DNA from: Loxodes magnus
Taxonomy: Eukaryota > Ciliophora > Karyorelictea > Loxodida > Loxodidae
Length of the DNA stretch: 64,000 nt
NCBI GenBank assembly: GCA_946699065.1
Contig: CAMPDV010002109.1
Location: 1-64,000, forward strand
Direction of reading: 5' to 3'
Shown here: piece by piece, positions 1 to 63,600 of the stretch
How the letters are laid out: each line of letters starts with the position of its first letter
Numbering within the stretch: the stretch's first letter is position 1
The notes under the pieces: model-generated
Told to the model about the DNA's origin: nothing
The model's input: the letters and a program-made list of their open reading frames with translations, nothing else
Database searches by the model: none
Program-made: the position numbers and the translations under genes

Positions 1-3000
1 TGAGGACTTTCACCTATAATTTCTAATACGAACTTAGTTTGCGTCACATAAACACATAAAATGGAATTGAGTTTGCATGTGGTTTAGCCCATGATGAATT
101 CGATCAAATATTTGAATGTACTTTAAATAAGGATGTCTTTTAGGAATTATCCATTCGAAAATATTTAATGATAAAGATTATAAAAAACTAATTCTGTAAG
201 ACTAAAATTATATTAACTCAAACTTTGTAAAAAATAAAAACCCAAAGATTGGCAAATATATTAAACATTTTCATCAAAAATTGCTTAAAAAAAGGATAGA
301 AATAAAAAAAATTTAATAGTTGAAACAAAAAGAAAAATTGATGGGAGAAAAAAATATAATTTAAGAAAGAAACTTAAGTAATGGTTGTGAAAGCAAATAA
401 GAATAAAATTGAAAATAAGAAGAGAAAGAGGAAAATGCGAGAACACAATTTAGAACCAATATAGAAATACAAAAGAACAGAAGCAGGAAGAATTAACTAG
501 AGGTTGATAATAAACTTATATGAACTCTTATACTTAACATAATTCGTATGAAAATAATATAAGTAGTGCAATTATGTGCTAATACTCAAAGTATTGAAAC
601 TTTTTTATCTTATTATTACTATTATTATTCATCAATTAAAAGTATACGTACAGTTTAGGCTATCAATTTATTTTTCTTAGTTATTTTTTATATAAATCTT
701 TCAAATTATTCTTAAATCCCTTTTTATTTAATATTAAGTAATTTATATTTACTATCTTTTATGGTTTCCTAACTTCTTTACCAATCTTTACCTATATAAT
801 GCCGGATCTATGGGCTCTATTATATATGAGTAATAAAAATCACTTTCTATCCCCTTTTCTCTCATTATCTCTTCAATTATAGAGTAATCTATTTGAAATT
901 CATGCTTTAGTGAACAAAAGTACCTTTTTTAGTTGAGTCTAGGTATATTAAATTTTTCTGTTCCATGAACTGTAGTATATACTCTTTTTAGCTGAGTTTG
1001 TTCTTGGGTAATCGTTTCTTTATGCAAGCATTTCAATCTCCATTGATTATTATATTAAGTCCTTTTATATTACTTATAGTTAAAATTCATTCACTAAATT
1101 ATAGAATGGCTTATATTATTCGTTGTCATTTGCCACAGGTGCATATATATTTATTAATGCCAATTTTTTCTTTATTTCAATGACCATCACTCTCGCTCCT
1201 CCAAAAAGCGTCATTTGGCTCACTTTATTCTATATTTCTCTAATCTCCTTACAAAAGTCGTTTCTAATATAGAATGCTACTCTTTGTCCTTTTTTTGACC
1301 CCACATTTATTAAGTTTTTTTTATTCTAGTATATTACACATATCTTTTTAATCTTCAATCTAAATCTCTCATATTGCCCTTATGTGGATATTTTTTTGAG
1401 TCATGCATTTGGCTAATGCCTCTTTTGCACTTCTAATTACCTGGCATTTTCTGTCCCTATTTTTGTGATTTATTCTTATTCTTCTTTTTCACCCGTCTCC
1501 TCTGCTTCCTCTTCATCACTTTCTTCTTTTTATTCATCTTCCTTCTCCAACTTTCCTTATTCTTATCTATCATTCTCTGCTTCCATATTCTTTCTATTAC
1601 TAGTTCTTTCTCCTTTTTAATCTTTTTCACTTATTATCTATCTTTCCTTCTTCTAATCTATTCTATCCTTCTTCTTTTACCTTTTCCTATTAATTGTTGG
1701 CTGATAATCGTTCATTTTTGTTTTTAGATTTCTTAGCATAGTAAATTCTAGATAAAATTTGCTTCCGTTTGCTTCTTACTTCTCACTTTTATCTTGCATT
1801 TTATTCTTTTTCTTCTTGAATTTTTTTATTTTTTTTCGCTATTTTCTTTATTTAAGCTTTTCATTACATACTCCATCATATTATTTTGTTTGTTTCTTAT
1901 TTCTTATGTTAGGGTTTAGCTTTTTTACCATCACTTATCCTATCTTTTACTCTAATTTGTTTTATAAAATATCTTATTATATAGTTGTTGCTTTCTACTT
2001 TATTTAATTCTTTGAATATTTCTCTGTCCCTCTGTTTACATATGTCCAATTCCATTTTGATGAATAATAATTCTTATTATTTAATTGTTTAGTTGTTTTA
2101 ATTCTTTTTCTATTTTCCTCGTTTATTTCCTTTTCTTCATCACTTGCTTCCTCTATAATCATTTATTCTCCTTCTTCAATTATCCTCTTATTTGTTTTAT
2201 TTTTAATTTTGGTTTTTATATTATTAAATTAGCTTCTCCTTCAAGCATCTTTAATTCTTTTGTATGTAGTTTTTTCCTTTTTGCTACTTCCACCCTTCTG
2301 CATTGTTTTGTGCTCTTTCAATTTGCATAGGCAGCAAATAAAATTTACTGGGCCTTGTATTCTCATTTTGTTCCGTTCAGGTCAATTACTTATGGTATCC
2401 TCTTTGCTTCGTCTATATCCTTTAAATCTAGATACACTACACTGCTACCTGTTAGCATTATAGTGTTTGGGTATGTATGCTATACCTCTACTCTAAATTT
2501 TCCATATTATCTCATTATTTCCATTACTTCCTTCATGTTTGAATATTAGCTTATTATGAGATATATTGGGTAGTTATGAATATCAAAGTATTCAAATTGT
2601 TTCTTCTCAGATAGGAATCCTAACGTCTTAGAATGTTCATTCTCTAATTTACACAAATTGTTATTATCTTTCTTCCTTGCAGAATACAAAATATGCTATT
2701 TGTTTTATTTAACAATGAAATTGGTCGCTGCTATTCCGTACTCGCTAAGTATTTGATTCCTAAACACTTGTATCACTTCTTAGTCTATGGCCTTTTTCTC
2801 TAATAAATAAGTGTTTTCTAGATAGTGGTTAAAATAAACTGCGGTCTACATATCTGATTGATCATCATAGGCATTTTAGTAGGCTCTTATCATTTAGTCT
2901 TCAGGAACGTTGGCCGAAATAAGTTTTTCGTTCTTTTGTTAAATTATTACTTAGATTGTTGCACTTTTTTTACCACTTTATTTCTTTCTTATTATATGCT

Positions 3001-3240
3001 CCTTCTTTTAGTGAAGTCTGTCCAATCTTAGATATATTGATATCCTTTTCCCATTGAGCCTAATATTATTTCATGTTCGTTCGATCAGCGTTGGTTTTGT
3101 GTAGTTGAGTGCTTGCGCTATGAGTTTGGTTCCAATTCGTAATAAAGAAGGTTGGACTTAATTAAAGAGAAGATGTGGGAGAAAAAAGTACTTTAGATTT
3201 TCTCTCCTACTCTGAGGAGGTGCATAAAAAGCTCTTTCTT
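1..3240 (-). mobile_element. LINE (non-LTR retrotransposon), 5' three quarters, cut by window edge
   Basis: Non-LTR retrotransposon read right to left in the Gln/Trp ciliate code. Its 5' leader lies near 3240-3160, 60 bases beyond the stop of the FHA gene on the same strand. An ORF1 region follows, with a degenerate zinc knuckle (CCLCKLKEH) near 2300. An APE-type endonuclease region spans about 1500-790, with IYAPV near 1150 and the GD-W-N active-site motif at 1045-1027, where the W is TGA (1033-1035). The reverse transcriptase would begin below 790 and is cut off. The copy at 60651-64000 is the same family, and the matching protein blocks are clear on both. Frame changes near the EN/RT junction suggest the copy is no longer functional. 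Its exact 3' end is outside the window. Confidence 0.85.
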
Positions 3241-3301
3241 GAAGCTAAATTTTTAATATATATAATAAAGAAATTCTTTAATTTGAAAGTAAGAAATTTT
3301 C

Positions 3302-5548
3302 TCAGGTTCTTTGTGCTAAAAACAAATATCCTCCTATGTTGAAGATTGTTTCTCTAGTAAGCTTATATCCCAATGAAGGATACTTATTTATTAAGGCATC
3401 ATAATCACTTAAGTTAACGAAAGTACCGTTTGCACTTTAATCAAAATATAGTCAGCCCCATCTAGAATTATATTGCATAAATCCATGGTTTGAAGATATT
3501 CCAGCACTACGCAAAATACATAAACCTTGATTTCTTCCAAAATTAAAATTTTCAGTTTAATTTTGATCTTGAACAGTGAAAGTTTATTCTTAAGAAGGTT
3601 TACTTTCTGGTTTTAAAGGCCATTTGTAGATTTTAAATCTTATAAAAGGTTAATTACTTTGAGTAATAACAGGTCCTTCTAATTTCCTTAATTCTGAAAA
3701 TTATTCGCTTTACTACTAGTTAGCATAGTAATATGAAGACATAAACAACTTATCGAACTAATTTGAAATTTCCGATTCACTTCACTAAAAAAAATTTTTC
3801 TTAGTTTTAGTTTTCATATCTTGCTTTTCTTCTTCAATTTACATTCCGAAACATTATGTCTAAAATTGTGCCTCTTCCTTTATTATTCCTGTATTCTAAC
3901 TAATAGAATGCTAAAAAGGCTAGCAATTTAGCCCTAATCTCTCATTTAATTTAGCCATTTGACCTAGAGGATTGAATTAAACTTTCATTGATTTTATTTT
4001 ATTGCCGTTATAGTTTGCATCATGCTGTAATACTTTTAAATTAACTTTAGTATCTTTCAAATTTCATAAATTTTAACTTTTAAGAATGTTAGAAGTGTTG
4101 TAAATTTTAATTAGCTAATCAGGTGGATAATCTAATTCCATTGTATTTATATGCTCTCCTACAGAGCACTCATCTATTACGATTATAAAATCTTGAGCTA
4201 ATTCAAGCACAAGTCCTTTCTATAGCACACAGTTTTAGCTATCTATCTTTACGCTAGTTCCTTAAATACTTCCAAGATCTCTTAAATATCATGCTTTTTC
4301 ATTCTTTATGTAATATATTTGTGACTACTTTTTAGAAATTCCCTATGCTTTCCAGCTAAAGCTTATGTCATTTTAATTTTATTGACTAGGAACATCTCGT
4401 CCGAAATAAACTTTCCTATTCTTTTTTTCACTAGTAGAAAGACCAAATTCATTAATAATTCACGATTAAGGATTTAATATCTTTTCTTATTCCTCCATTT
4501 CACTTTTTTTTCCATAGATTAAAATGTTTTAAAGATTTATGAACGAATTAAATATATTCTCTCCTTTATTCATTCTTTATTAGCATTCTTGAGCTAAGTA
4601 AGTTAACTTGTTCCTTTCGACTATTTAATTTCATATTAAAAAAAAATTATTTATTTATATCCAATTTACTTTATTATCTTGAATATTCATTCATGTTCTG
4701 ACTACTTCCTTGAAGCCATCTTTACAACTCTTAACCTTTTCATACTATCAGTATTTAATTATGTAATCAATAAAATTCTGAATAAAGGTGTCGAAATCCA
4801 AAAAAAAGGCAATTTTAAAATTCTACTTTTATTTATTGTAGAAATCTCATGCTATTTAATCTTAAATTCACTCTTTGAATTTTTCAGTTTGTAGGACAAT
4901 ATTCTAAATTTTTTCAAGTATTTAATCCTATGTCTTCTCCCATTCAATTTTAGCTTTATCAAATTAATCTTAAAAAAGGGAAAATAGATTATGCTTTTCT
5001 TCCTTTAATTTTTAATTGAAAGAAATTATTAGATTGTTAATCTTAATATCTTTCTCTAGTTCGTTTTCGTTAATCAATTTTTAAAGTATTTCACATTTTT
5101 CGCTCATTTATTATATAAAGGTTTATATTTCGTTTTTTATTTAATCAGTTTCTTGTTAAAAGATTTTTTTTAACTCCTGAAATTTCTATTTTTCCTCTTA
5201 ATCCCAAACTCAGTTATTTTCAATACAAAAGAAGTCAAAGATTTACTCTAGCAGTTGCTTTGCATTTTAGATTGATTGCAAGAGCTATTAACTTTTAATC
5301 CTTTACTAAGATCAAGAAGGCTTCGTCAGTTTTATTATTTCCTCGCTAGCAGATTTCAAATATGATTGAACGTTAGAAAGCTATTATGGGTTAATGTTTA
5401 TATATTACTAGCTTTCTAAAATCTGTTATATTTTTGAATCAATTTGTTCCAGAAGGCCATAAAAGGGAGGAAGTTCTAGTAGTTTAGTTTCTTGCAAATT
5501 CTTCATCAAGTCCTAAATAGTTTTTTGAATTTACTAAAGGTCCTGCAT
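3302..5548 (-). CDS. Coiled-coil protein with two FHA domains
   Basis: Predicted 748-residue protein. Residues 1-350 are Gln/Lys/Glu-rich coiled coil. FHA domain 1 lies at about 370-465 (VYFGRD, NDISFSW, ISKKQSQIYY, WYLRDLGSIQGTSVKI) and FHA domain 2 at about 640-740 (FGRNQG, AGISSNHGFMQY, DQSANGTFVNLS). FHA domains bind phosphothreonine peptides, so a role as a phosphorylation-dependent scaffold is inferred. The frame is continuous over 2.2 kb with no frameshift but needs 12 internal TGA codons read as Trp, for example in ILNPQSW, KAWYLRD and GWLYFD; six TGG are also used. The last TGA, after AQRT, is taken as the stop. The ATG at 5548 is the first plausible start, and an alternative lies at 5107. 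It is head-to-head with the gene at 5687, leaving 138 bases between the ATGs for shared control. Confidence 0.88.
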
Positions 5549-10250: not shown

Positions 10251-11752
10251 AACGCCAAACATTTAATTTTATATACACATTTAAATCAGAAAAGTTAATG
10301 AAATTCCTAAATTTTGGCATAAAAATAGCCATTTCTATGAAAGATTACATGAATTCTGAGAGTAAAAGATAATAGAATGCAGCAAAAGTCAGTCTATTAG
10401 TTAATTGCGAAGGTAAAATCATTATGATTAAAGAAAGTGTTTCAATGATTATTCAATATATAATCCAAAAGCTTAGAGCAAGAAGTTATTTATCAATCTG
10501 ATAAAAACCCAAAAAGATTATATATTTAATCTAGTTTTTTAGGAAAAAGCAGCCATATAAAGTAGAAAAAGTTCCATGACCAAATGCAAAAAGTTTCAGA
10601 AAAGTGAAAAGATATTTCTTTTATCGTTTTCTATTTCGTTAATTCTAGAATCTAATATAACAATGTTAAGTTATCTAACTATCATTGTTCTAAGCAACAG
10701 ACTTAAAAAGTTGAAATGAATGACTTTAATAATTGAATAAATATGATTTATAAAAATAAGCTATAAAGTGATGGGATTAAGATAAGAATTAGCATAATTA
10801 AAGTAGCAGTTAAGAAATTGATAACTATTATAAACTAAAAAATATCTAAAGCTTGGTAAATTAAATATCTATCTCTTTCAAATTTAAATTGATTTATTAA
10901 TAAACTCTTAAGCTAATTATGAAACTTTAAAATCCTATTTCTAAAGATAATTATCATAGCATCATTTAAATGCTTAATTAAACTATAAGAATGCTTTTAA
11001 TTAGACAGAAGAGCTATGTTTACTTATATAATTGTATTAATTTTATTAGCTTTAAGTTATTTTAGAATAATTTATAAAAATTTGTCTTAGAAGGTAGATC
11101 AATAGTAGAGAGTAAAATAGATACTACAAGTACTTAAGATGAATGTATGACTTTATTATACATAATACTAAGCTAGCAAAACTTCAATATACTTAGTGAT
11201 TATTATTTTACTATATCTCAAGTAAATGTGTCATCTGGTATCATAATATGAAGAATCTAAGGGATTTAAGATTATATTTTTTATTATGCTTTAATAAACG
11301 TAAAGCCAAGCTAAATATAAATAAGGTATTGAATATAATACTCTATAAGTAGTTTATCAAGCTATCTTAAAGTGAGGCTTCATTGTCTTATTTAAGGATT
11401 ATCAATTAACTGTCTTTTTATCCTCAGAGCTTCTAAGATATCATTTTAGTTAAAATCCTTTTATATCTTATAGAATCATTCTGATATCTAATTTAGAAAT
11501 CTTTTTTTAAATAAAAGCTTTAATTCTAGATTTCTCTTTAGCTTGAATGGTAAAAGATCAAATAAAGTATAAAATGAAGCAGAAGGTAAAGAAAGAAGTA
11601 ATAACGAAAAGTTAAGTTATGATAGATGAGATGGGATTAGACTATATTAAAGTACCCTAAATTTATTAATTTAATTAAAAAAGGGGTTAAAAAAGGGGTT
11701 TCTAAAAGTGTTAAACAATGCAATTTTGGTAAGTTTGTGGAAATGAGCTACT
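10251..11752. other. No assigned gene; possible coding fragment at 10285-10640
   Basis: Between 10285 and about 10640 the plus strand reads as a plausible protein segment (NSESKRQQNAAKVSLLVNC, then EGKIIMIKESVSMIIQYII). It matches nothing I recognise and may be the tail of a retroelement. From 10640 to 11750 the sequence is A+T-rich with many TAGCT and TTAAG words, and I see no gene, RNA or repeat in it. Confidence 0.3.
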
Positions 11753-11888
11753 ATGAGTAAAACGACTATTAAAGAGCGTATAAATCGAGAATTATTAAAT
11801 TGCCTAATAAAAAACAATGAGAGCTACGATTTATGTATTGTCTGTCTTACTTTTGCTAACAGAAAGCTAAGTACTTAAGGATAAATTT

Positions 11889-12650
11889 ATGTCCCAAGCT
11901 AAAATTAGAGGAAATTAAAATTGGTAAAGCAAAAAAATGATGTTCAAACATGGTAAAACGAACTTAAAATTTTCAGAAGAACTATCTGGAAAGTTAGATA
12001 GCAAGGGTCAATTATCAAATTCAATTAATGATTTGAATTTTGATGGATAATTCTCTGAAATTTTGGAATAGTAAGAAGCTCCAAATTAGTAGAATCAGTA
12101 GACAGATCTCACTTAACTAAATAACAAAAATCCTTAGATTAAAAAAAATAAAATCTCCTTCTAAATATAGTCAGAAGAACCCAAAGAAGATTTAAACAAC
12201 AAGAAAAAATTAGATTCTGAGGTACAATCTTATAGTTTTAATGGAGAATTTGACGAAGCAAGTGATTTTGATGAACTACAAAGTGCAGGAGATATTTATT
12301 TAGACCAAGACGGTGTTAAACATTTATTTGGAAGCTTTAAAGAGTTCTTTTTAGAAGACTTCAATGAATTAAAAAATATAATAACTGCCTAAGATCAAGA
12401 AAGTAATAGCAATGATTCCACTGAGATGGGAGAAGACTTTTAGCAATTTCTTCATGATGTAGATTAACTAGCAGAAGAGCTAAGTGACTTTGACAACTGG
12501 GAAATAGAAATAATAGACTAAGATGAAATTGACTAAGATGAACTTGACTAAGATGAGTCTTTCCAAAGCTTTTTGAATTTAGAGCAAGATTTAGGGTAGG
12601 GAAAAGGAGCATTCCTGTAAGTGGCTACTCCAAATCGTAAATCAGAATGA
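11889..12650 (+). CDS. Acidic low-complexity protein, unknown function
   Basis: Predicted 253 residues from ATG 11889 to TGA 12648-12650 with no internal TGA. A basic N-terminus (MSQAKIRGNQNWQSKK) is followed by an Asn/Gln linker and a strongly acidic C-terminal half (DQLAEELSDFDNWEIEIID) with a triple DQDE-type repeat near residues 210-225. There is no catalytic motif. Acidic tails like this occur in chromatin and chaperone-type proteins, but that is only analogy. An alternative start exists: ATG 11753 (MSKTTIKERINRELLNCLIK) runs in another frame and joins this one if a 28-nt GT...AG segment at 11871-11898 is an intron, giving 289 residues. The codon pattern is host-like and no mobile-element motif is present. 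Confidence 0.65.
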
Positions 12651-19774: not shown

Positions 19775-20245
19775 ACTAAATGTCCACTTACATTCTTCAT
19801 TTTCATATTAACTGTTAACTTACCATCTTTATTTTCTCATTAAATATACACTTACCCACTAAATTTCACATTGAATGTCAACTTACATTCTTCATTTTCA
19901 CGTTAATCGCCAACTTACCAGCTTAATTTCGCATTAAATGTCAACTTACGTTCTTCATTTTTATATTAAATGTCAATTTACATCCTTCATTTTCACATTA
20001 AATGTCAACTTGCATCCTTCATTTTACATTAAATGTTCACTTACCATCTTCGATTTCGCATTAAATGTCAACTTACCAACTTAATTTTTACATTAAATGT
20101 TAAATTACCAACTTCATTTTACAGTAAATGTCCACTTACCATCTTCATTTTCAAAATAAATGTTAACTTGCATCCTTTATTTTCACATTAATTGTCAACT
20201 TACCTTCTATATGTTAAGAATATTAAATGTCAACTTACCTATAAA
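19775..20245 (-). repeat. Minisatellite of about 14 units of 30-32 bp
   Basis: On the plus strand the start of the unit (AAATGTCAACTTAC) recurs at about 19904, 19936, 19968, 20000 and 20030, a period of 32 with some 30-31-base units. Copies further out are more diverged. On the minus strand each unit begins GTAAGTTGAC, passes through ATTTAATGTGAAAATG and ends in GAAG before three more bases. Units therefore open with a 5' splice-site-like word and finish with AG. Unit length is not a multiple of three and varies, so the array is unlikely to be a coding repeat. It begins exactly where the RING/coiled-coil gene ends. Confidence 0.92.
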
Positions 20246-21630
20246 AGAAATAAAGTTTCGAAATTTTTCGTACTTTCTATATTAGCATTATACTTAAAAT
20301 TAGACTTACTTTCTAAAATTTTTTAAAGTTCTCTTAAATTTACCATCTACATAGAATTATTATTTTAAAAACTTAACTTACTCCATTTCATTTAGAGTTC
20401 TTCACCATCAATTATCGATTAAGATTGTATCGTTTAAGAGTTATTAAATATGTTGCTATTCCTTAAGATATCCAACGACCATCAGTATAAATTAGTTTAT
20501 TTTTAGATCTTTTCCTTTATCTTCCTAATAATAGAATTGTATTTAACTGTAAGATTTACAGATTTATTATTTGGTGATACTATCGATATTTAGATTTTTT
20601 AATTCTCGCTTTACTAAGAAGCCTTTTATTACTATGACTTTTATTAAACGTTATGTACTTATTAAGGATTACTTGGTTTCACTATATTTTACTACTAAAT
20701 CTAAGAGAATTATTATTACTATTAAAGATAACCTTAATACTCATTTAACTATATCGTGTGAACTTAATTCTCATTTGCTAGAATTTAGTCCCTATTCTCA
20801 ATATTAATTTACTCCTATAGGTTCTATAATTATGAACTCATTTGATTAATTTATAGCCTTAAATTATTTTTTTCTTAGTTAAGCTAATTCAAACTGTCCT
20901 TAGTATAAGCCATTCCTTTGTTTATATTATTTTTCTCCTATTAAATAAGTGAAATTTGTTAATCCAACTGATTAATCTAAGTAGTATATTAATTGTTAGC
21001 CTGACTTAGTGTATCTATTTAGATTCTTATATTATCTATCTATTCAAACACATTAGCCTATATCTAGGAGATCTATTAGAAGACCTCTTAGGCTTCCGTT
21101 GTTATCTTTAATACCAACTTCTCCTAATTAGGATTAATAAAGCTTTATTGGATGCCTTATTATGGATTATTTTATTTATTAGTCTATAATTACTAAAACT
21201 TGAGATAGTCTAACTATTGTCTTAACTATTAACCAAACTATTTCAGCTCTTTCTATTTAGCCAAACTATTCTTGAAAAGGTATTCGTTGAGGTGATGTAC
21301 TACTTTAAATATCAGACTTCCTAGTTACTTAGACAACAAAATATATGCTGACTATATTTTAGTCTAATAACTTTCAAGCAAAGCTATGCTGCTTTGTATA
21401 TCCTTTTGCTCTAAACACTTTAGTAATTATTCATCTTTCTGCAAATTTAAAGGATATGTCTTATGAACTATCTAACAAGCTTAGTAAGCACATTTTATGC
21501 TCATATTTTTCTAGAAATAGTCATTGACACAAATAAAGCAGATACTGTGTTAACATGGAAGAACCATCGGAACTTTCATCTAGCTATCGAAATCTCCATT
21601 ACACGATTTACATTTAGCAGCCTAGAACAT
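20230..21630 (-). CDS. RING finger/coiled-coil protein (TRIM-like layout)
   Basis: Predicted 466 residues from ATG 21630 to the TGA at 20230-20232. The N-terminal RING-type finger has C7, C10, C26, H28, C31, C34, C47 and C52 (KCKSC...LPCQHSICFIC...KCAYQAC). A long Gln-rich coiled coil follows at about residues 60-330 (QIDTLSQANNQYTTQINQL, NQLNQEKNNLRLQINQMSSQ), then a less regular C-terminal part. RING fingers usually act as ubiquitin E3 ligases and the coiled coil would oligomerise the protein; both roles are inferred from the family. Only one TGA (YWWSLD) is internal. The reading ends in the first minisatellite unit, where GTAAGTTGA offers either a stop or a splice donor. The plus strand also gives long readable frames here, but the Gln-rich heptads and Zn ligands identify the minus strand. 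Confidence 0.85.
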
Positions 21631-27560: not shown

Positions 27561-28011
27561 ATCCTACACTTTACTGATTTATATTTTTTTCCCTGATTAT
27601 AACTTTTTTTTTCCATTTTTCTTAATATTAAAATAACCTTATTTATAAGCTTAAAATTTAACTTTAACACATAAAAATTATATATAACCTTAACATAAAA
27701 AAATTATTATATTCAGAAAAACTTAATTTGAGTTATAAACAATTTTTAAATATCCTATAACTACCTAGAAAATATTTACATTTTTTAATAGTTAAAAAAT
27801 ATAAGAAAATATAATCTCGTATACATTTGTAAATATTTAAATATTTAATTATGTTAAAAAATTTCATTATGTAAGCATATAAATGGTAAATCATGTAAGT
27901 ATAATAATATATTAGTATATCAGTATATTAGAATAATAAGATAGTAGTATAATTAATTATATAAATATTTAAGTGTTGTTTTATTAATTCATACTTCTCT
28001 TCATGTCCTCC
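27561..28011. other. A+T-rich spacer
   Basis: Repeats of ATATTAGTAT around 27900-27950 and long AT stretches. It lies downstream of the WD40 gene. No gene seen. Confidence 0.4.
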
Positions 28012-30093
28012 TCACTCATCTTAATGCTAGTAGTTATGCAATTCCTCAATCCATAATCACCATATACTTGATTTCAATCCACCTACTTATTATAAAATAA
28101 GAATATTTTAAATAATACTTACCTATTACGCTTAGCTAGATGAATTGATATTTTAATGTAGTACTCTCTAGATATTCCATCTCCTAAATGAGAAGTCATT
28201 ATCAGATCCTCACTTAGAAAATATCCCTCTTCCTGATATTAACCATATATCATCACCCGATATGTCCAATGTCTCCACCGCCTTAGTATGACCCAATAAT
28301 GTAAGGATACATTATCCAGTTGATAAAAACCAAATCTTAATAGTCTTGTCAGTAGAGCCAGATATTATGTAGTTGTTAATTGCAGATACTTTAACAGAAC
28401 ATATCCAGTTTGAATGACCTTGAAGAGTTTTAATAAGTTGATCAGTTTAGAAAGACCAGATCTTTATTGTTTTATCGTCACTTCCTGAGACAATTCATTT
28501 CTGGTCACTTGTTATTGATACCGAGGCAACTCCATCCGTATGTTCAATCAATGTTTTTAGGAGGGCACCACTCTGGAAATTCCAAATCTTTATTGTTTTA
28601 TCGGAACTTCCCGAAACAATTCATTTCTGGTCACTTGTGATTACTACCGATAAAATTGATCTCTTGTGTCCCTTAAAAGTTTTCATACAACTTCCAGTCT
28701 ATAAATCCCAGATTTTGATCGTTTTATCGGAGCTTCCCGATACAATATATTTAGAGTCTGGGGAGATAACTAGTGGTAGGACATAAGAGATATGACCTTA
28801 GAATACATGAGGCTATTCCGTAATGATGCTAGTTAAGTTAGTATTATTCAAATTGCAGCTAAAAAACTTAGTATTTCAAAGATTATAATGTTGGAAATTA
28901 GTATTTGCGATGTTGCATTTATTGAAAGTCTAGTCAGAAATATCAACATTAGTTAAATTCATATTTGAAAAGCTTTATTAATTGAAATTCGAATTCATGT
29001 AGTTAAGTAATGTAATAACATTAGAAGCCCCAATTTGCATCTTCTTGTCATTTCTTACCTAATCCAAGACTTGCTTTAATTTATTCTCCATTTGACCGTC
29101 GCTTATCTCGTTTATCCTTAATAATAACTTGGTTTAATCAACTATGTACTCTCTATTTAATAGACTTTATTATGTCAAGTCTTAAACGTTAATGTCTTCA
29201 ATATATTAGACCATTCTTCGAAACGTACATTATTTAATCTTTAACTATGGGACTATATTATTTGCTACTTTTATATCTATTCACTCTATGTTTTCTAATC
29301 ATGAACTTAATTTTATTAGATTTGAAACTGCTTTGATGGCTCCTTGACTTAACTAGCTTAGTTTGCAAAATATTACCTTACGACTTCACTTATGCTGATC
29401 TCTTCTAAGCCCAATTCTGAATGCTTGCTAATAATTTCTTATAATATTCCAAAAATGTGCTATCTTATACTTTATTGTATTTTATATTTATTTCCAAAAC
29501 CTGAAGGTATTTACCTGACCTAAACTATTTCCTCCTAAAGAGATTAAACTTCTTAAGATATTCCATTTAAAAAGATAAGCATTTTACTACAATCTTAATT
29601 TGTTCTCGCTTAATATGATATTAAATATTAGTAATTTTAATATAAAATGCTTAAGTTTTTTATTAGTTTTTCTGTTTAGATTATGTTGTTTTAAGCATCC
29701 TAAAATTCATCTTAATAAATTTATTTAGTAACTAACATAACAATCTCCATGAAAAACTTTTTTAATTTTATCAGATACTAAATTAAACTTGCTAGGTTAC
29801 TTTTGAATATTTAACCGTTCTGAGTTAAATCTTTAATTAAGCTTAATAAATTTCAATTTATTTCAAATTTTCTCGTCTCTTACTTAAGATATTCAAATAT
29901 ATTGAAGTCTTTTAAATTTTAATATTCAATGCTTACTATTTGATCATGCATCTTACATTTTATAATATTAGTATCTTCCAGTAATATATTGATACAAGCT
30001 AAACATCTAAGACATCCACAATTTAGTTTTTTTCGGAATTCTTAACACTTGATCGAAAGCATTATAACACTTCTAACAGATATTTAAATCCAT
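28012..30093 (-). CDS. RING / coiled-coil / pentapeptide / WD40 protein
   Basis: The N-terminal RING-like finger reads ICQKC...NCGCLRCLACI...IKCKMH. A coiled region rich in Gln follows (SLQEEIVQVRQIPS, KHSELGLEEISISEV). Then comes a pentapeptide-like block (MNLTNVDISDQTF, CNIANTNF, CNLNNTNL) and five WD40 blades (IVSGSSDKTIKIWDLQTGSC and similar). WD40 blades form a propeller for protein binding and the RING suggests ubiquitin ligase activity; the substrate is unknown. TGA is Trp in two aligned blades (DQKWIVSGS). A 29-nt intron, GTAAGG...CTAG at 29353-29381, joins two frames exactly between codons (ISEV|LSQGAIK). The first zinc pair lies in another frame, separated by a run of seven A, so a one-base indel or a start at 30062 must be considered. 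The stop at 28012-28014 is approximate. Confidence 0.85.
29353..29381 (-). other. Predicted 29-nt intron
   Basis: Starts GTAAGG and ends GCTAG on the minus strand. Removing it connects two well-supported coding frames of the RING/WD40 gene without splitting a codon. It is the best supported intron in the window. Confidence 0.6.
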
Positions 30094-41009: not shown

Positions 41010-42128
41010 TCAATAGCATTTCCTGAATACTATTTCTGGCCCTGATTCTTTATAATCACTCTAAGTTATCCATTTATTTTAAAAAAGGACTAAGCTTGAT
41101 AATATGGATCCTCCAATAAATGTCAGTCATTTTCTTTCTGGCACAACTATTATTTTAATTTTTGCATTTGGGGCTAATTTTTACATTTCTTTTTTCATTC
41201 TTTCAGCCAAGCCTGGTAAAAGAGTTGTGCCTCCAGATAATATTATTTAATTGTATAAATCTTATCTCAAAGTAATATCACATTTCTGAATAGATTAATT
41301 AGTTATCTCATCAAGGCCTTTAAAGCAATTTCCATTTAATGAAGGTTGGAAAAGTATTTCTGCACAACGAAATCGTTCACTTCCGATAGTTATTCTATTA
41401 CCATCAGGCATTTCATATGACTTTTCTAAAGTTGAAGATTCTGCTTAATTTTTCATTTCTTAATCAAAATCTTAAGCAACATATGCTTGCTACTCTTTTA
41501 TATCGCGAACTATTTCTTTGTCTGCCGAAGTATTTAGATAATAATCTCTTTCTTTTAGAATCTTTCTCAAGTATTTACTTACATCTCTACCCGCAAGATC
41601 TTATCTCTTAATAGCCTTAGGAATATTAAATCCATCGAAAATAGGAACGACTTGACTTACACCATCACCTGATTCTACTATAACTCCAGAAGCTTTACCT
41701 GTTGCATATAAAGAAAGTATAGCTTATATCTGTATATACATAGCAGGAACATTAAATTTTTCGAACATTATTTGAGTCATTTTTTCTCTGTTTTTTTTAG
41801 GATTTTTTGGAGCTTCAGTCAACAAAATAGGATGCTCTTCAGGCTTTGTATGGAGTTCATTATAGAAAGTATGATGCCAAATTTTTTCCATATCATCCCA
41901 GTTAGTTACAATACCATGCTCAATTGGATAAGTAAAGTCTAAATCTCTCTAATTAATCATTGCTTCATTTCCTACAAAATTATCCTTATCCTATATTCTA
42001 ATAATAGCTTGCTATGCTTTATATCGCCCTACAATCGAAGGGAATACAGAGCTAGGTCGTTCGTCTCCAGCGAAACCAGCTTTGATCTGACCAGAACCGT
42101 TGTCAATTACAATAGATCTTTCTTACAT
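41010..42128 (-). CDS. Actin (divergent)
   Basis: Predicted 372 residues, against about 375 for conventional actin, from ATG 42128 to the TGA at 41010-41012. The nucleotide-binding and subdomain motifs are in place: [20 protein letters not shown] at the start, [74 protein letters not shown] (read as NQIILSGG...) and a [11 protein letters not shown] end. Actin polymerises into filaments for motility, phagocytosis and cytokinesis. The body is diverged, for example a [18 protein letters not shown] region, so it may be a specialised isoform; ciliates are known for divergent actins. One internal TGA falls at a normally aromatic position ([15 protein letters not shown], where actin has Tyr), so Trp is a conservative reading. 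No intron is needed. Another in-frame TGA occurs four codons after the stop. Confidence 0.95.
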
Positions 42129-47098: not shown

Positions 47099-50000
47099 AT
47101 GTCAAACACATTCCAAATTGGCTTGATTAGTAGATTCAAGGAACTGCTAGAGAAAAGAAACTAAAACTAAAAGAAAATTAAAGATAATGAAGGATAAATA
47201 AAACAAATAAAATAGGTAGAAAAGAAAAATTACATGTACTATGAATAGTTTAAGCTTGGTATCTTTATTGATTTAATCTAGTCAAGTACTGGGTATGTAC
47301 TTAATCAGCAAAGCTTAGATTAAATCAGATAGTTGTTTATTAGCATAGTAATTAATCAGAAAAATTTAAATAAACTAATACGAACCAAAGATTAATTACA
47401 GGTCTAAAACTAAAATAAAGAAGAAGTACTTTAATTTCACAAAGAAATATTAAAGAATCTTTAAGAAAAGTAAAGAGCAAACTATATAAAAATCTAAGAG
47501 CTGAACTAGAAAAAATTAGCTTTATAGGAATAATAAGAGAGATAAAAAATTCTTTGCTAGCCTAACAAATTATACCAATAACCTTAGATAGGTGTATAAG
47601 AATAAAATTAATACATTCAAAATTAGGAAGACATATCAATATTTCAATTCTAACATGTTTAAAAGTCTCCAGAAATAGATTAATCCAAAGTTTATTCCAG
47701 GTAAAGTATCGAAAAAATAAAAGATGAAAATCATAGCAATCTTTCCCAAGCTGTAATATAAAAATTAAAAAGACAATTTGATGCTTACAGACTTTTAAGT
47801 TAGGATGGAAATAGCTACTATAGAGCTATTGGCTATGCCTATTTAGAACATCTCATAAGATCTACAACTCCTAAAGTTGAATTATAAGAATTTATATCAA
47901 ACTTAGTTTTAAAAAAAGGGTATTTTACTGTTAGACCAGCCACTATTTAAGAAGTGTAGGTAAAGCATAGTAAATTGAGAGGATCCTTCCTAGATTTATT
48001 ACAAAATCTACTTTAGTATAGAGATCATACAAATTTGGTTTAGAGACTAGAATCTTACATTGGTGATAACGAATATAACTACGATGAAGCTTTGGTTTGG
48101 GAAATGAGAACACTGACTGCTAATTATATAGAGATACATAAAGATTCTTTTGATTAATGAAATCGAAAGTAGATAGAGGATGTTTTAACAATGGGAAATG
48201 AAGCTATCAATCAAGTAACAGGATGACTATAAGTAGTCCTCAACATAAAAGTTAATATAGTAATAGCTGATAATAATTATGAAGCTCCTATATCGATAAA
48301 CTGAGTAAATATGAAAGGAATCTTACCTGTTATTTACATCATGTATAAGCCTGGACATTTCGATATAATTTACTCAAAGGAATAATCTTAAGCCGACGGG
48401 TACAATGAAGAAACCTTTATCAATTAAAAAAGATTCCCTTAGGGCTATTAATACTATAAGCAACCATTTTACCTGGAAATTTAATTTTAAAATAAGTTAT
48501 CGCCTAAATTAAATGAAGCAAACTATAATTTCTAATCTTAAATAATAAAAGATTACGAGATAAGAAAGTAATTAATACAAGTTAAGGGCTAATACAGTTC
48601 TAAGGAAGAAACTAAGTAAATCTAAAAAGTCTAGCAACTAATATGTGCAAATGAAAAGTGCAAGAATTAAGTTTAAGAAAGTTAATCAGTTGTACTAAAA
48701 TGTTAGCATTTGTTTTGTAAAGAATGCTTGAAAGAGTATATGAAAGTAGTTACTAATGGTAGATTAATATGCTACGAAGGAGAGTTAAATCACAAGTTGA
48801 AATGCTTATTTGAATACTGCAATTAGGAGTTAGAAAAATAAGATGTTCTTAAAATCTTAGACTAATGGGAGATCTAATATTATTCAAATGAAGCTGCTAA
48901 ACGATGGTCTAATGTCTAAAGCGTATATGTAAGAGACAATAAGATAGAATTAAAAGAATAACTTAAAGTAGTATGCTAAAGTAACACTTGCAGGAATCCT
49001 TAAATAAACTAGAATAACTCCATTATATTATAATGTGGGCATATATTCTGTAAAGAATGCTTTATATCATATTTGATGCTAGTTACTAATTACTTATTAA
49101 TATGTAATGAAGGAGAATATGGCTACAACTCTAAGTGTTAATACTTAGGATGCTAATATGTGATATTAATATCTGATATCGAAAAAGCATTAGACTAGTA
49201 GCTTTATAAATAGTACTTGGAATAAGCTACCTAAAGAAGAAATAAAAAAGAATATGTTTAATTGAATCAATTTCAATGCTAGATGCAAAGTTGTCTGTAA
49301 TGGAAGACGAATGATGAAAAAATCTTATTAGATTGCAGTCACTATTTTTGCAAGTAGTGCATACTTAAAAAGTTGTCAAATGAAACAGGTGGGTTTATGG
49401 TGATATTAGAAGCAGAGAAAATCTAAATGCCTTAATGTGATTTCTGTAAGACACAATTATCATAAGATGATTATTATAAAATTCTAGGCAGAAAAGTATA
49501 TAATAAAAAATTAGAAGTTGCTTTATAAAGAATTGAAGGTCTACAAATTCAATAATATGTGATGTAACCAAAGCTGTAAAAGGAAGAAAAAAAACCATAA
49601 ATGAAAGAAGGAATTATCCAGTGTCAAAATAAAAAATGCCTTAGAATGATGATAGGCGAAGATAGTATCACATTATAGTGTAAATAAAAACATACTTTTT
49701 GCAAAAGTTGCATGTTTAATAAATTAAATGAAAAGACAAGTAGAAAATTAATAACAATAGAGGGTTAGTAAGGACATTAAAAAATTAAATGCTTCAACTG
49801 CAGAATTATTATAGACTAAAGCTAGACGACAAAAGAATTATTTGATAAGTAGATATTTGATTACATTTACAATGAGGCCATCCAAAGATATTAAAAAACT
49901 AAAGAATAATAATAATAATAATAAGTATAATTTAATAATCAAATGTAGTAATTTTTATTTTAATGCAAGTGGCCAAATTGCGTAAAATCAATCCCACTTA

Positions 50001-50713
50001 GTTTAAAAGTAGTTCTATCTTGCAGACACGAATTTTGCAGAGTATGTGTGATAAACTAAATACATAGCAACATTAAAAATAAAAATATAATTTGGAATAA
50101 AGATTCTTAGCAATATTAAGTTTTACAATGTCCTTGATGCCTAACGTGGATGAAACAAGAAGATATAAGGGAATTATTTGATGAAAATGTATTCAAAAAA
50201 TACTTTTTAAACTTTTTCGAAGAGATATAAAAAAATTGTGCAAGATGCAAGAAGTCAATTAATAATGAAGTAGTTTTTCAAGGTTTTTAGGGATTTTGCG
50301 AGGACTTTTACTGTGACAATTGCCTTTTTTACGAGTTTAATTCAACTTAATAGGATCCTAAATGTCGAATATGTAATAGGAAGTATACTAGAGCTATAGT
50401 ATAAAAGATCAAAGAATACATTAAAAAAATAGATAAGTGTAATTTTTGCCAGGATGCTAGACAAGAGCAAAATGTATAGTAAAAGAAAATAAAATTACAA
50501 TGCAAACATTGATTTTGCTATTCGTGTTTATAATAAAATGCTCGTAAATAATGCTTGATATGTTTTATAAAGTTTACACAAGAAGATGAGGAGTATATTC
50601 GGGATTTATAGGGTTAGATGCGAGAGCAGTAATAGAATTAATAATAAATTGACCAATAAAGACAATAGTTACCTAACTAGGAGATTGCAAATTATGGGTA
50701 GAATCTTAACTGA
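47099..50713 (+). CDS. OTU-like domain with seven tandem RING-type fingers; catalytic Cys replaced by Ser
   Basis: Predicted 1204 residues. Residues 1-225 are Gln/Lys-rich, coiled-coil-like and without TGA. An OTU (otubain-like) domain spans about 225-425, with the active-site box DGNSYYRAIGYAYLEHLI at 236-253 and the His box YKPGHFDIIYS around H420. OTU deubiquitinases have DGNC; here residue 239 is Ser (AGC), one base from Cys, so cleavage activity is probably lost. Residues 515-1160 hold seven successive zinc clusters: CQHLFCKEC, CGHIFCKEC, CSHYFCKQC, KHTFCKSC, CRHEFCRVC, a variant CEDFYCDNC and CKHWFCYSC, most preceded by CX4C or CX2C pairs. RING clusters recruit ubiquitin-conjugating enzymes. 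Five TGA are Trp (CPWC, CKHWFC and three in the OTU part). The stop may be 50711-50713, or 50828-50830 if the former is Trp. Confidence 0.85.
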
Positions 50714-59094: not shown

Positions 59095-59697
59095 TCAAAT
59101 TTTATCATACTTTGAGCTACTCTCCATTAGTTGCCTTTAACGATAAAGCTACCTGAAGTTCTGCATACTCCTTTCTTTGCAGCATTTAAATTCGTCTCCA
59201 ATTCTAAAAGGATCTTAACAACATAACTAGCCATCTGGACACTATTAACTTCCACAGCACTTTTCTCCTGGAATATCCATTGCTTAGCATTTTTGTTAGC
59301 TATTTTATACTGCAGTAGCAAACGTATCGTAAATTTATCCAGGACAACATAATTAGAATAAATTGTAAGGATTTACACAGCACATTACTATTGGCATTTC
59401 TCCCATACAGCAACTGTGATCACAACAGGCAACTCTATTATCACAACACCATTTATCTTGAGCATGCATACAGTACGATTATCCAGTTGGACAAAGCTCT
59501 AAAGTATCTTGCGCTTTTATTTAATCAAAAACAATTACCGTTGGAACTAGATAAATGAAGAATGTTAGAAACTTCGTTTTTAATACTAGCATAAATATGG
59601 AATTTAATAGTAAAGCCACAAATAAATAGTCAGAATTTAAATATCCATCATAATCCAGCTACAAATTAACAAGCTTATAACTGGGAACAGAACTCAT
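59095..59697 (-). CDS. Cysteine-rich secreted or membrane-anchored protein, granulin-like pattern
   Basis: Predicted 200 residues from ATG 59697 to the TGA at 59095-59097 with no internal TGA. A hydrophobic segment at about residues 20-55 (YLFVALLLNSIFMLVL and FLTFFIYLVPTVIVF) is either a signal anchor or, if an internal Met is the start, a cleavable signal peptide. The following domain has over 20 Cys with eight CC pairs (DKWCCD, VACCDHSCCMG, VMCCV, QLCCPGQ, EKCCG, GQLCCQD, FKCCK). CPDGQLCC and CCPGQ resemble granulin modules, which are disulfide-rich extracellular mini-domains. The Cys order does not fit a full granulin, so a divergent relative or another ciliate surface protein is possible. 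Extracellular or vesicle location is inferred from the hydrophobic start and the paired cysteines. Confidence 0.75.
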
Positions 59698-60650: not shown

Positions 60651-63600
60651 ATGGAAGGCTTCAAAAAGGGTTTCTATACCACTTCTTCAATGTAGGAGAG
60701 AAAACCTGAAGTACTTTCTTCTATCATGTCTTCGCTTTAATTAGTCCAACCTTCTTTATTACGAATGGAAGCCAGACTTATAACTCAAGCTCTCAGACCA
60801 AACGGAACCATTTTCACTGATCTAAGAAACACGATAAAATAATTCACTCAACGGAAAAAGGATACCAATATGTCTATGATTGGACGGACTTCACTAAAAG
60901 GAGAGCATAAAATAAGAAAGGAATGAAGTGGTAAAGCAAAGTCACAATCTAAGCTATAATTTAATAAAAGAATGAACAACTAATCTCAGCTAACGTTTCT
61001 GAAGACTAAATGGTAAGAGTCTACTAAAATGCCTATGATAATCTATCTGATATGGTGGTCGCAGTTTATTTTAACCACTATCTGGAAAATACTGATTTAG
61101 TAGAGAAAAAGGTCATAGACTAAGAAGTATAAAAAGTGTTTAGGAATCAAATATGGAGCGAGTACGGATAAGCAGTGGCCAAATTCATTGTCAAATAAAA
61201 CAGGATAGTATATTTAATATTCAACAATGAAGAAAGATACTAGCAATTCGCTTAATTCAGGGAATGAACATTCAAAGACGTTAGAATTCCTATCTAAGCA
61301 AGAAATTAATTAGAATACTTTGACATTGATAACTTCCCAGTTTATTTCATAATAAATGAATATTCAAACATGAAGGAAGTAATGGAAGTAATGAGACAAT
61401 ATGGAAAATCTAGAGGAGAGGTATAGCATACATGCCCAAACACTATAATGCTAACAGGTAGTAGTGTAGTGTACTTAGATTTAAAAGATATAGACGAAGC
61501 AAAAAGGATACCAGAAGTAATAGACCTGAACGGAAACAAAATGAGAATACAAGGCCCAGTAAATTTTATTTGTTGTAATGCAAATTGAAAGGCCACACAG
61601 ATCAACAATACAGAAGGGTGGAAGCAGCAAAAAGGAAAAAAACTACATACAAAAAATTAAAGATGCTTGAAGGAGAAGTTAAATTAACAATATACAAACC
61701 AAAATTAAAAGCAAATAAAGCAAATAAGAGGATAATTGAAGAAGGAGAGTAAATTATTATAGAGGAAGCAAGGGAAGAAGAGAAGGAAATAAAAGGAGAA
61801 TAGAACAATAATTAAAAAAACCAGACAATTAAATAATAAAAGTCTTTTATGCTAAATTAATAAATAAGTTTTATTTTTCATCAAAATGGAATTGGACATA
61901 TGTAAGGCAAAGGATAGAGAAATGTTTATAGAATTAAATAAAATAGAAAGCAAACAATTATATAATAAGATATTTAAAATATTAGAGAAAAGGATAGGAT
62001 AAGTGATGGTAAAAATGCTAAACTCTAACAGAAAAAATAAAAACAAGCAAAATAGCATTATGTAATATGTAAGGAAAAGCGTAAATTAAGAAAAATAGCA
62101 AAAATAAATAGAAAAAGCTCAAGAAGAAAAAGAATAAAAAGCAAGATGAAAGTGAAAAGTAAAAAGCAAACTGAAACAAATTTTAATTAGAATTTACTAT
62201 GCTAAGAAACCAAAAAACAAATTTAACAATTACCCAACAACAATTAATAGGAAAAGGCAAAAAAGAAGAGAAGAATAGATAAGAAGAAGGAAAAGATAGA
62301 TAATAAGTGGAAAAAGATAAAAAAGGAGAAAAAACTAATAATGAAAATAATATGGAAGCAGAAAATAATAGATAAGATGAAAGAAAGGTGGAGAAGAAAA
62401 GGAATAAAAAGAAGAAAGTGGTGAAGAGGAAGCAGAGGAGATGGGTGAAAAAGAAGAATAAGAATAAGTCATAAAAATAGGGACGGCAAATGTTAGGGGA
62501 GTTATGAAGTGCAAAAGAGGCACTAGCCAAATTAATAACTCAAAAAAGTATCCATATTGTGGCAATATAAGAGATTTAGATTGAAGACTAAAAGGATATA
62601 TTTAATACAGCAGGATATAAAAACTTAATAAATGTGGGGTCAAAAAAAGGGAAAGGTGTAGCATTCTATATTAGAAAAGACTCATGTAAGGAGATCAGAA
62701 AAATATAGAATGAAGTCAACCAAATGACGCTTTTTGGAGGAGCGAGAGTGATGGTCATTGAAATAAGGAAAAAACTGGTAGTAATAAATATATATGCACC
62801 TGTGGAAAATGACAACTAATAATATGAGCCATTCTATAACTTAGTGAAGAATTTAAACTATAAGCAATAGAAAAAGGACATTAATGTAATGATCATAAGA
62901 GATTGAAATACGCACATAAAGAAATGATTACCTAAAAAAGTAAACTTAGTTGGAAAGAGAATGCTACAGTTCATTGAACAGAATAATTTAATATGCCTAG
63001 ACCCAATTTAAATTGGTACTTTTGTTCACTGGGACTATCAAATAAAATAGATTACTTTTTAATTGAAGAGATAATGAGAGAAAAGGTGATAAAAGTGATT
63101 TTTATTACTCATACGTAATAGGGGACCATAGATCTGGTATTATATAGATAAAGATTGGTAAAGAAGTTAGAAAACCATAAAAGATAGCAAATATAAATTA
63201 CTTAATATTAAAGAAAAAAGAGATCTAAGAAAAATTTAAAGATTTATACAAGAAAATATCTAAGAAGAAGAAATTGAAAGCCTAAACGGTACGTAGACTT
63301 ACAAATGATGAAAGAAAAAAATATAAGAAGGAGCTCAAATGGTATGTGAAACAGTTAAAACATAAAACTTTAAGATATATAAATACTCAGAAATAACAAA
63401 ATAGTGCAATAAAATTGCAGCAAATAATTAAAATAAAGGGCTAGGAACAACGAATAAATAAATGAAAATCAATAAAACGAGAAATATAGAGAGAATACCA
63501 AAGAGTAAGACAAGAATACAATTAATCAAGAATAAAAGATACAAGAAATTAGCTAAACCTATTTATGGGCATTGTAAATAAAGGAAACTTGACAGAAATC

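Follow-up and report, generated by a model that had tools for sequence, protein, structure and literature searches.

UGA as a sense codon and as a stop in a 64,000-nucleotide stretch of probable karyorelict DNA

The window analysed here, a 64,000-nucleotide stretch of DNA with a GC content of 25.5%, raises the question of whether UGA can specify an amino acid in the same genes that end on it. We found no closed open reading frame of at least 150 aa in the window under the standard code, and none of at least 200 aa when TGA alone was freed. With TAA and TAG (TAR) taken as Gln, a self-trained codon HMM, which replaced a first segmentation by codon bias, delimited 32 coding-like segments. Some of the pieces behind its raw count of 115 TGA are apparently mis-framed, and the codon counts given here use only six hand-bounded models (WD40, actin, FHA, otubain/RING, Asp/Glu-rich and RING/ubiquitin-like). 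The kelch model was left out, and a frame that we take to be granulin-like was dropped because its start motif was not found. Across the ten HMM segments or their extensions searched, Pfam also identified kelch repeats and a weak LINE endonuclease.

The reading of TAR was scored with four residues, Q, K, E and Y, each tried for both codons together. For actin, Q gave 412.2 bits, K 410.8, E 405.2 and Y 388.7, and for the FHA protein Q gave 49.6 bits against 45.3 for K, 42.5 for E and 37.9 for Y; on these scores, UAA and UAG encode glutamine. With TAR as Gln, the actin gene is full length without an intron, holds 16 TAR and one TGA in frame, and matches PDB actins with 522.5 bits over residues 6-374 of 375, and the WD40 frame is kept open at 28440-28740. 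The frames of actin, FHA and otubain/RING are unbroken over 372, 748 and 1204 codons, respectively. A search for GT-AG introns of 15-60 nt returned no convincing intron; its single candidate was AT-rich and linked two weak segments.

Table 1. Gene models, LINE copies and TGA codons located in the window
Feature	Position	Strand	Remarks
Coiled-coil-like protein with two FHA domains, 748 aa, 12 sense TGA	3302..5548	-	coiled-coil label by eye
Sense TGA in FHA 1, EKA-TGA-YLRDLGS	4289..4291	-	
Sense TGA in FHA 2, RWG-TGA-LYFDQSANGT	3452..3454	-	
Terminal TGA of FHA protein, AQRT-TGA	3302..3304	-	directly after second FHA
Asp/Glu-rich protein, 367 aa, one sense TGA	11547..12650	+	
RING + ubiquitin-like protein, one sense TGA	20230..21630	-	3' end putative; domain scores below Pfam cut-offs
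Pentapeptide + WD40 protein gene	28210..29091	-	start ATG at 29091; 3' end putative
Sense TGA, DQK-TGA-IVSGSDDKTIKIW blade	28495..28497	-	
Sense TGA, DQK-TGA-IVSGSSDKTIKIW blade	28621..28623	-	duplicate of the other TGA blade
In-frame TGA in pentapeptide repeats, NL-TGA-N	28876..28878	-	
Actin gene, 372 aa, one uninterrupted frame	41010..42128	-	PF00022 412.2 bits
Sense TGA in actin, PERK-TGA-LTFIGG	41127..41129	-	opposite Tyr of actins shown
Terminal TGA of actin, KCY-TGA	41010..41012	-	at family C-terminus
Otubain-like (C65) + multi-RING protein, 1204 aa	47099..50713	+	PF10275 71.8 bits, RING families; sense TGA at 48158, 48224, 48302, 50135, 50510
Sense TGA in RING, CKH-TGA-FCYSC	50510..50512	+	
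Putative stop TGA of otubain/RING gene	50711..50713	+	
Decayed LINE copy with AP endonuclease	60658..63312	+	TGA at 62904 (RD-TGA-N) and 62925 (IKK-TGA)
Second decayed LINE copy, 84% identical	628..3245	-	GD-TGA-N at 1033-1035

Within the 3450 codons of the six models, we counted 23 in-frame TGA against 27 TGG. Twelve of these 23 lie in the FHA gene; without it, 11 TGA stand against 21 TGG. In their two alternative frames, the six genes carry 178 TGA in about 6900 codons, which indicates that TGA is avoided in frame about four-fold yet clearly tolerated. TGA makes up 0.67% of all codons in the six models (0.41% without FHA) and 6.5% of the in-frame stop codons (23/354). We give next to no chance to an ordinary ciliate in which TGA is only a stop (code 6) and in which pseudogenes, germline insertions or sequencing errors account for the internal codons. 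Such an origin could draw on the dead LINE copies and on the FHA gene holding more than half of the sense TGA; against it, the actin, FHA and 1204-aa otubain frames run without a frameshift, TGA is nearly as common as TGG, and its positions get their best scores from aromatic residues in the summed scan described below.

The first-pass annotation had pointed to DQK-TGA-IVSGS in two WD40 blades at 28440-28740, to CKH-TGA-FCYSC in a RING, to ERK-TGA at an aromatic position of actin and to 12 internal TGA in a double-FHA frame. All of these are present at the positions in Table 1; the actin codon stands opposite Tyr in the solved actins shown, and the FHA frame has exactly the 12 internal TGA reported, besides a terminal one. 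In the WD40 gene, PF00400 reached 156 bits over five stretches within 27988-29295 in the Pfam search, and the blade preceding the two TGA blades reads DSKYIVSGS, with the codon TAT. The two TGA blades are 75% identical duplicates of each other, and their TGAs therefore count as one event. The TGAs avoid the conserved Trp columns that we checked and occur at looser ones: the Trp of the WD40 KIW column is TGG in four blades, and actin columns 79, 86 and 355 (numbering of the actin alignment) are TGG, with Phe in the remaining Trp column.

TGA was then re-read as different residues and the Pfam models were re-scored. In the FHA protein, Trp was the best of 20 residues (W 49.6, F 48.0, Y 47.6, V 45.9, lowest D 37.8), and Trp was also the only reading under which PF00498 (49.6 bits) covered two stretches (E up to 0.01); this protein had no match in the PDB at E 0.01. 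Across 20 residues, PF00400 gave Y 152.4, W 151.8, F 151.7 and L 150.5, with D lowest at 140.4. The three aromatic residues lead these scores, but the WD40 column is loosely conserved, and the closest solved WD40 proteins among those shown have Thr or no residue there. Several other WD40-type models placed Trp below Phe or Tyr (for example THOC3, W 135.1 and F 187.9; WDR3_1st, W 190.9 and Y 195.8). The otubain scan of 20 residues gave F 78.1, W 77.2, H 75.9, and Y and A 75.4, with D lowest at 70.8, and in a structure alignment with OTUB1 the TGA columns, counted from the printed alignment, carry Phe, Ala and His. Actin spoke against Trp, which ranked 9th of the 10 residues scanned (Y 185.0, F 184.6, then S, Q, R, K, L and C from 183.3 to 182.7, W 182.3 and G 181.8). 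In scans of five residues, the AP endonuclease gave W 24.7, F 23.4, Y 19.4, C 16.4 and R 14.1, and RING_2 gave W 23.7, F 23.1, R 22.8, Y 22.3 and C 21.2; among three RING models, one preferred Arg and one Phe. Two further sites also spoke against Trp, with Arg ahead in the pentapeptide repeats (PF13599, R 37.4 and W 34.1) and at the ubiquitin-like TGA (R 19.5 and W 17.5). For a zinc segment with CP-TGA-C, no relevant Pfam family was matched.

We summed the scores over six families, namely FHA, WD40 PF00400, otubain, actin, AP endonuclease and one RING model. With RING_2, the model chosen for the main sum, the result was W 509.3, F 508.9, Y 502.1, C 482.0 and R 480.4 bits; with RING_5 it was F 511.0, W 509.7, Y 504.7, C 481.1 and R 479.9, and with zf-C3HC4 it was W 507.6, F 506.9, Y 501.8, R 481.9 and C 478.7. 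The comparison of UGA positions with family profiles, which the first-pass annotation had named as a check, thus favoured an aromatic residue over Cys and Arg in the sum, and left some single sites that prefer Arg. These results support an aromatic reading of TGA, which fits the families far better than Cys or Arg. The scans do not separate Trp from Phe, and their order flips with the RING model. That UGA is sense but stands for Phe, Tyr, Cys/selenocysteine or Arg seems very unlikely to us: Phe equals Trp in the sum, actin prefers Tyr, and the pentapeptide and ubiquitin-like sites prefer Arg, but Cys and Arg fall 27-29 bits below in the six-family sum, UGA is one base away from UGG, and UGA codons of Condylostoma magnum were found by mass spectrometry to be translated as Trp (PMC4967479). 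TGA most likely encodes tryptophan, and its preference over Phe rests on the published work and on the neighbouring codon TGG.

The LINE copies were rejected as a test of Trp, since both are dead and shifted in frame, which makes the TGA/TGG exchange between them uninformative; their TGAs, like the two of the WD40 blades, are copies of one another. GD-TGA-N had been reported for both copies. TGA does occur in both AP-endonuclease motifs, but the GD form belongs to one copy only and the other reads RD (Table 1). PF14529 scored 24.7 bits with TGA as Trp, below its cut-off of 27.4.

As had been claimed for actin and other genes, TGA also terminates frames. Actin ends on TGA 39 codons past its last sense TGA, followed four codons further by another TGA in the same frame, and the FHA protein ends on TGA 50 codons past its last sense TGA. 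UGA therefore acts as a stop at both of the family-defined ends (2/2), and the observation that TGA serves both as sense and as stop is confirmed. In the Asp/Glu-rich and otubain genes, the terminal TGA coincides with a fall in GC, which makes these ends composition-defined and putative; in the Asp/Glu-rich gene the putative stop is followed by TAA and a further TGA, and GC falls to 0.15 afterwards. All four ends, two defined by family and two by composition, are TGA, and no TAA or TAG gene end was established among them. The GC of the 60 nt after the stop is 0.183 for actin, 0.133 for FHA, 0.150 for the Asp/Glu-rich gene and 0.167 for otubain; against this pattern, the flanks of the RING/ubiquitin-like model (0.25) and of the WD40 model (0.317) are not AT-rich. 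The WD40 value was taken after IFSK-TGA (28210-28212), the next in-frame TGA of that gene, and this TGA is probably sense because GC stays high after it. The WD40 model in the codon counts stops at IFSK-TGA; if it is sense, the sense count becomes at least 24.

We also counted stop codons in the last 20 codons before the ends. Across the six models, TGA was seen 0 times (0.76 expected), TAA twice (6.9 expected, Poisson P 0.03) and TAG 6 times (3.6 expected); for the four best-defined ends, the numbers were TGA 0 (0.5 expected), TAA 2 (4.7 expected, P 0.16) and TAG 5 (2.0 expected). For TGA, the shortfall reaches significance on none of the sets (0 seen against 0.4-0.8 expected); small numbers suggest that both TGA and TAA are scarce ahead of stops, but not significantly so on the secure models. 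By eye, no neighbouring motif was obvious at sense or stop TGAs among the few cases listed, an observation compatible with a positional rule but no proof of one.

These ends bear on a Condylostoma-type code (NCBI 28), in which the sense meanings of the three codons are the same as here and UAA and UAG are stops as well. The WD40 gene leaves some room for it: its 3' end is not fixed, and one way of reading the sequence is followed by a tandem TAA. However, both family-defined ends are TGA and no UAA or UAG end is established; TAG is undepleted before the model ends, whereas C. magnum depletes all three codons (PMC4967479); and UGA use in C. magnum is only 0.042% (PMC4967479). We regard this code as a slim chance. 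In the 3' part of the WD40 gene, the segment 28086-28122 begins GTAAGTATT and finishes TAATAAG, by eye a possible intron of 37-40 nt; it was not called by the intron-aware search, and at this length it would exceed at least 93% of L. magnus introns, which argues against a Loxodes origin.

The combination of TAA and TAG as Gln with TGA as sense at columns favouring aromatic residues and as stop at both family-defined ends corresponds to NCBI code 27 (PMC11441545, PMC4967479), with a karyorelict as the best fit. The first-pass annotation had ascribed the double use of UGA to karyorelict ciliates, and its placing of the window in such a ciliate is supported. We infer the taxon, since tRNA and Rfam searches found no tRNA, rRNA or other Rfam RNA in the window, the families identified in the scanned frames did not include eRF1, and exact searches with LINE patterns (a 29-mer in viral_contigs, a 21-mer in genome_contigs) gave 0 matches each. 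Users of UAR and UGA as sense codons named in PMC12005148 and PMC4967479 are karyorelicts, Condylostoma and Amoebophrya sp. Kv. The code 27 organisms Loxodes magnus and Parduczia sp. share with the window UAR as Gln, UGA as sense and stop, AT-rich 3' flanks and a LINE-type endonuclease. For L. magnus, UGA and UAA but not UAG are reported to be depleted in about 20 codons before the stop, the 3' UTR has 18.6% GC, and PF14529/RVT_1 LINEs are abundant (PMC11441545); a hint of the same UGA and UAA scarcity is seen here. The L. magnus genome carries LINEs with Exo_endo_phos_2, tandem repeats and introns mostly of 25 bp or less; in the window the PF14529 match is weak, tandem arrays are present and no short intron was called. 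Gene models that lack a convincing intron are in keeping with a Loxodes-like karyorelict, and so are the weak remnants of LINE endonuclease; the coding GC of 0.26-0.33, somewhat below the 33.5% mean of L. magnus, stands against such an origin. Altogether, we hold with high confidence that the window is karyorelict nuclear DNA, most likely of Loxodes or a near relative, using code 27 with positional UGA. In Blepharisma japonicum, UGA is likewise Trp (PMC6935857), but UAA and UAG are stops there and Gln here.

A further rival origin is a syndinean such as Amoebophrya sp. ex Karlodinium veneficum, in which all three stop codons are read as sense: this alveolate has the same sense meanings in a comparatively AT-rich genome, and UGA makes up 9.7% of its in-frame stops (PMC12005148), against 6.5% here. 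Yet its actin is shown without in-frame stops in a figure legend, LTR elements make up 2.0 of the 2.1 Mb of its retroelements, and its MAKER genes average 2.6 exons (PMC12005148), whereas the window has an actin with 16 TAR and one TGA, non-LTR copies and no convincing intron. We consider this origin very unlikely, and prefer the karyorelict.

In a karyorelict of code 27, UAA and UAG would be glutamine, and UGA would be tryptophan inside coding sequences and the sole stop. Near the transcript end, with a short AT-rich 3' UTR and a poly(A) tail, the release factor would win at UGA; elsewhere, tRNA-Trp would win. In a published proposal, translation happens by default, and a poly(A) tail close by allows the release factor to prevail at the genuine stop (PMC4967479). 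A tRNA-Trp(CCA) whose anticodon stem has 4 bp is reported as apparently present in Loxodes (quoted in PMC12005148). The window itself supplies the frames, the reading of TAR as Gln over K, E and Y, the preference of TGA sites for aromatic residues, two family-defined gene ends on TGA and the AT-rich 3' flanks; Trp over Phe, the tRNA and the poly(A)-proximity mechanism are inferred from published work. In ambiguous codes, a stop codon can be recognisable by its place near the transcript end and not by its letters alone. The double meaning of UGA is an already known rule of karyorelict ciliates and is not new; the window is a clear genomic example of this published principle, with both meanings inside one actin gene.

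UGA accounts for 0.120% of codons in Parduczia, 0.059% in B. japonicum and 0.042% in C. magnum (PMC4967479), against 0.67% here (0.41% without FHA). UGA use here lies above these three published values, but six genes are too few for us to claim a difference. That this is a karyorelict in which UGA is nearly half of the Trp codons (23/50, six genes) and the sole stop, with a much heavier sense load than 0.042-0.120% of codons, is a doubtful suggestion; the possible high UGA share of Trp is the one point of the window that would merit further attention.

Several minor observations concern other parts of the window. The granulin-like frame (59152-59586, minus strand) is Cys-rich with a hydrophobic start and carries CPTGQSYC...CCDNRVACCDHSCC; no Pfam family was matched over 59152-59493. 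Besides the LINE pair, decayed interspersed repeats form an inverted pair at 37393-38209/9452-10274 (73% identity), as the LINE pair itself is inverted (84%), and a direct pair at 35730-36477/21816-22580 (75%). At the 3' end of the RING/ubiquitin-like gene lies a 32-bp minisatellite of about 14.5 copies (19777-20239).
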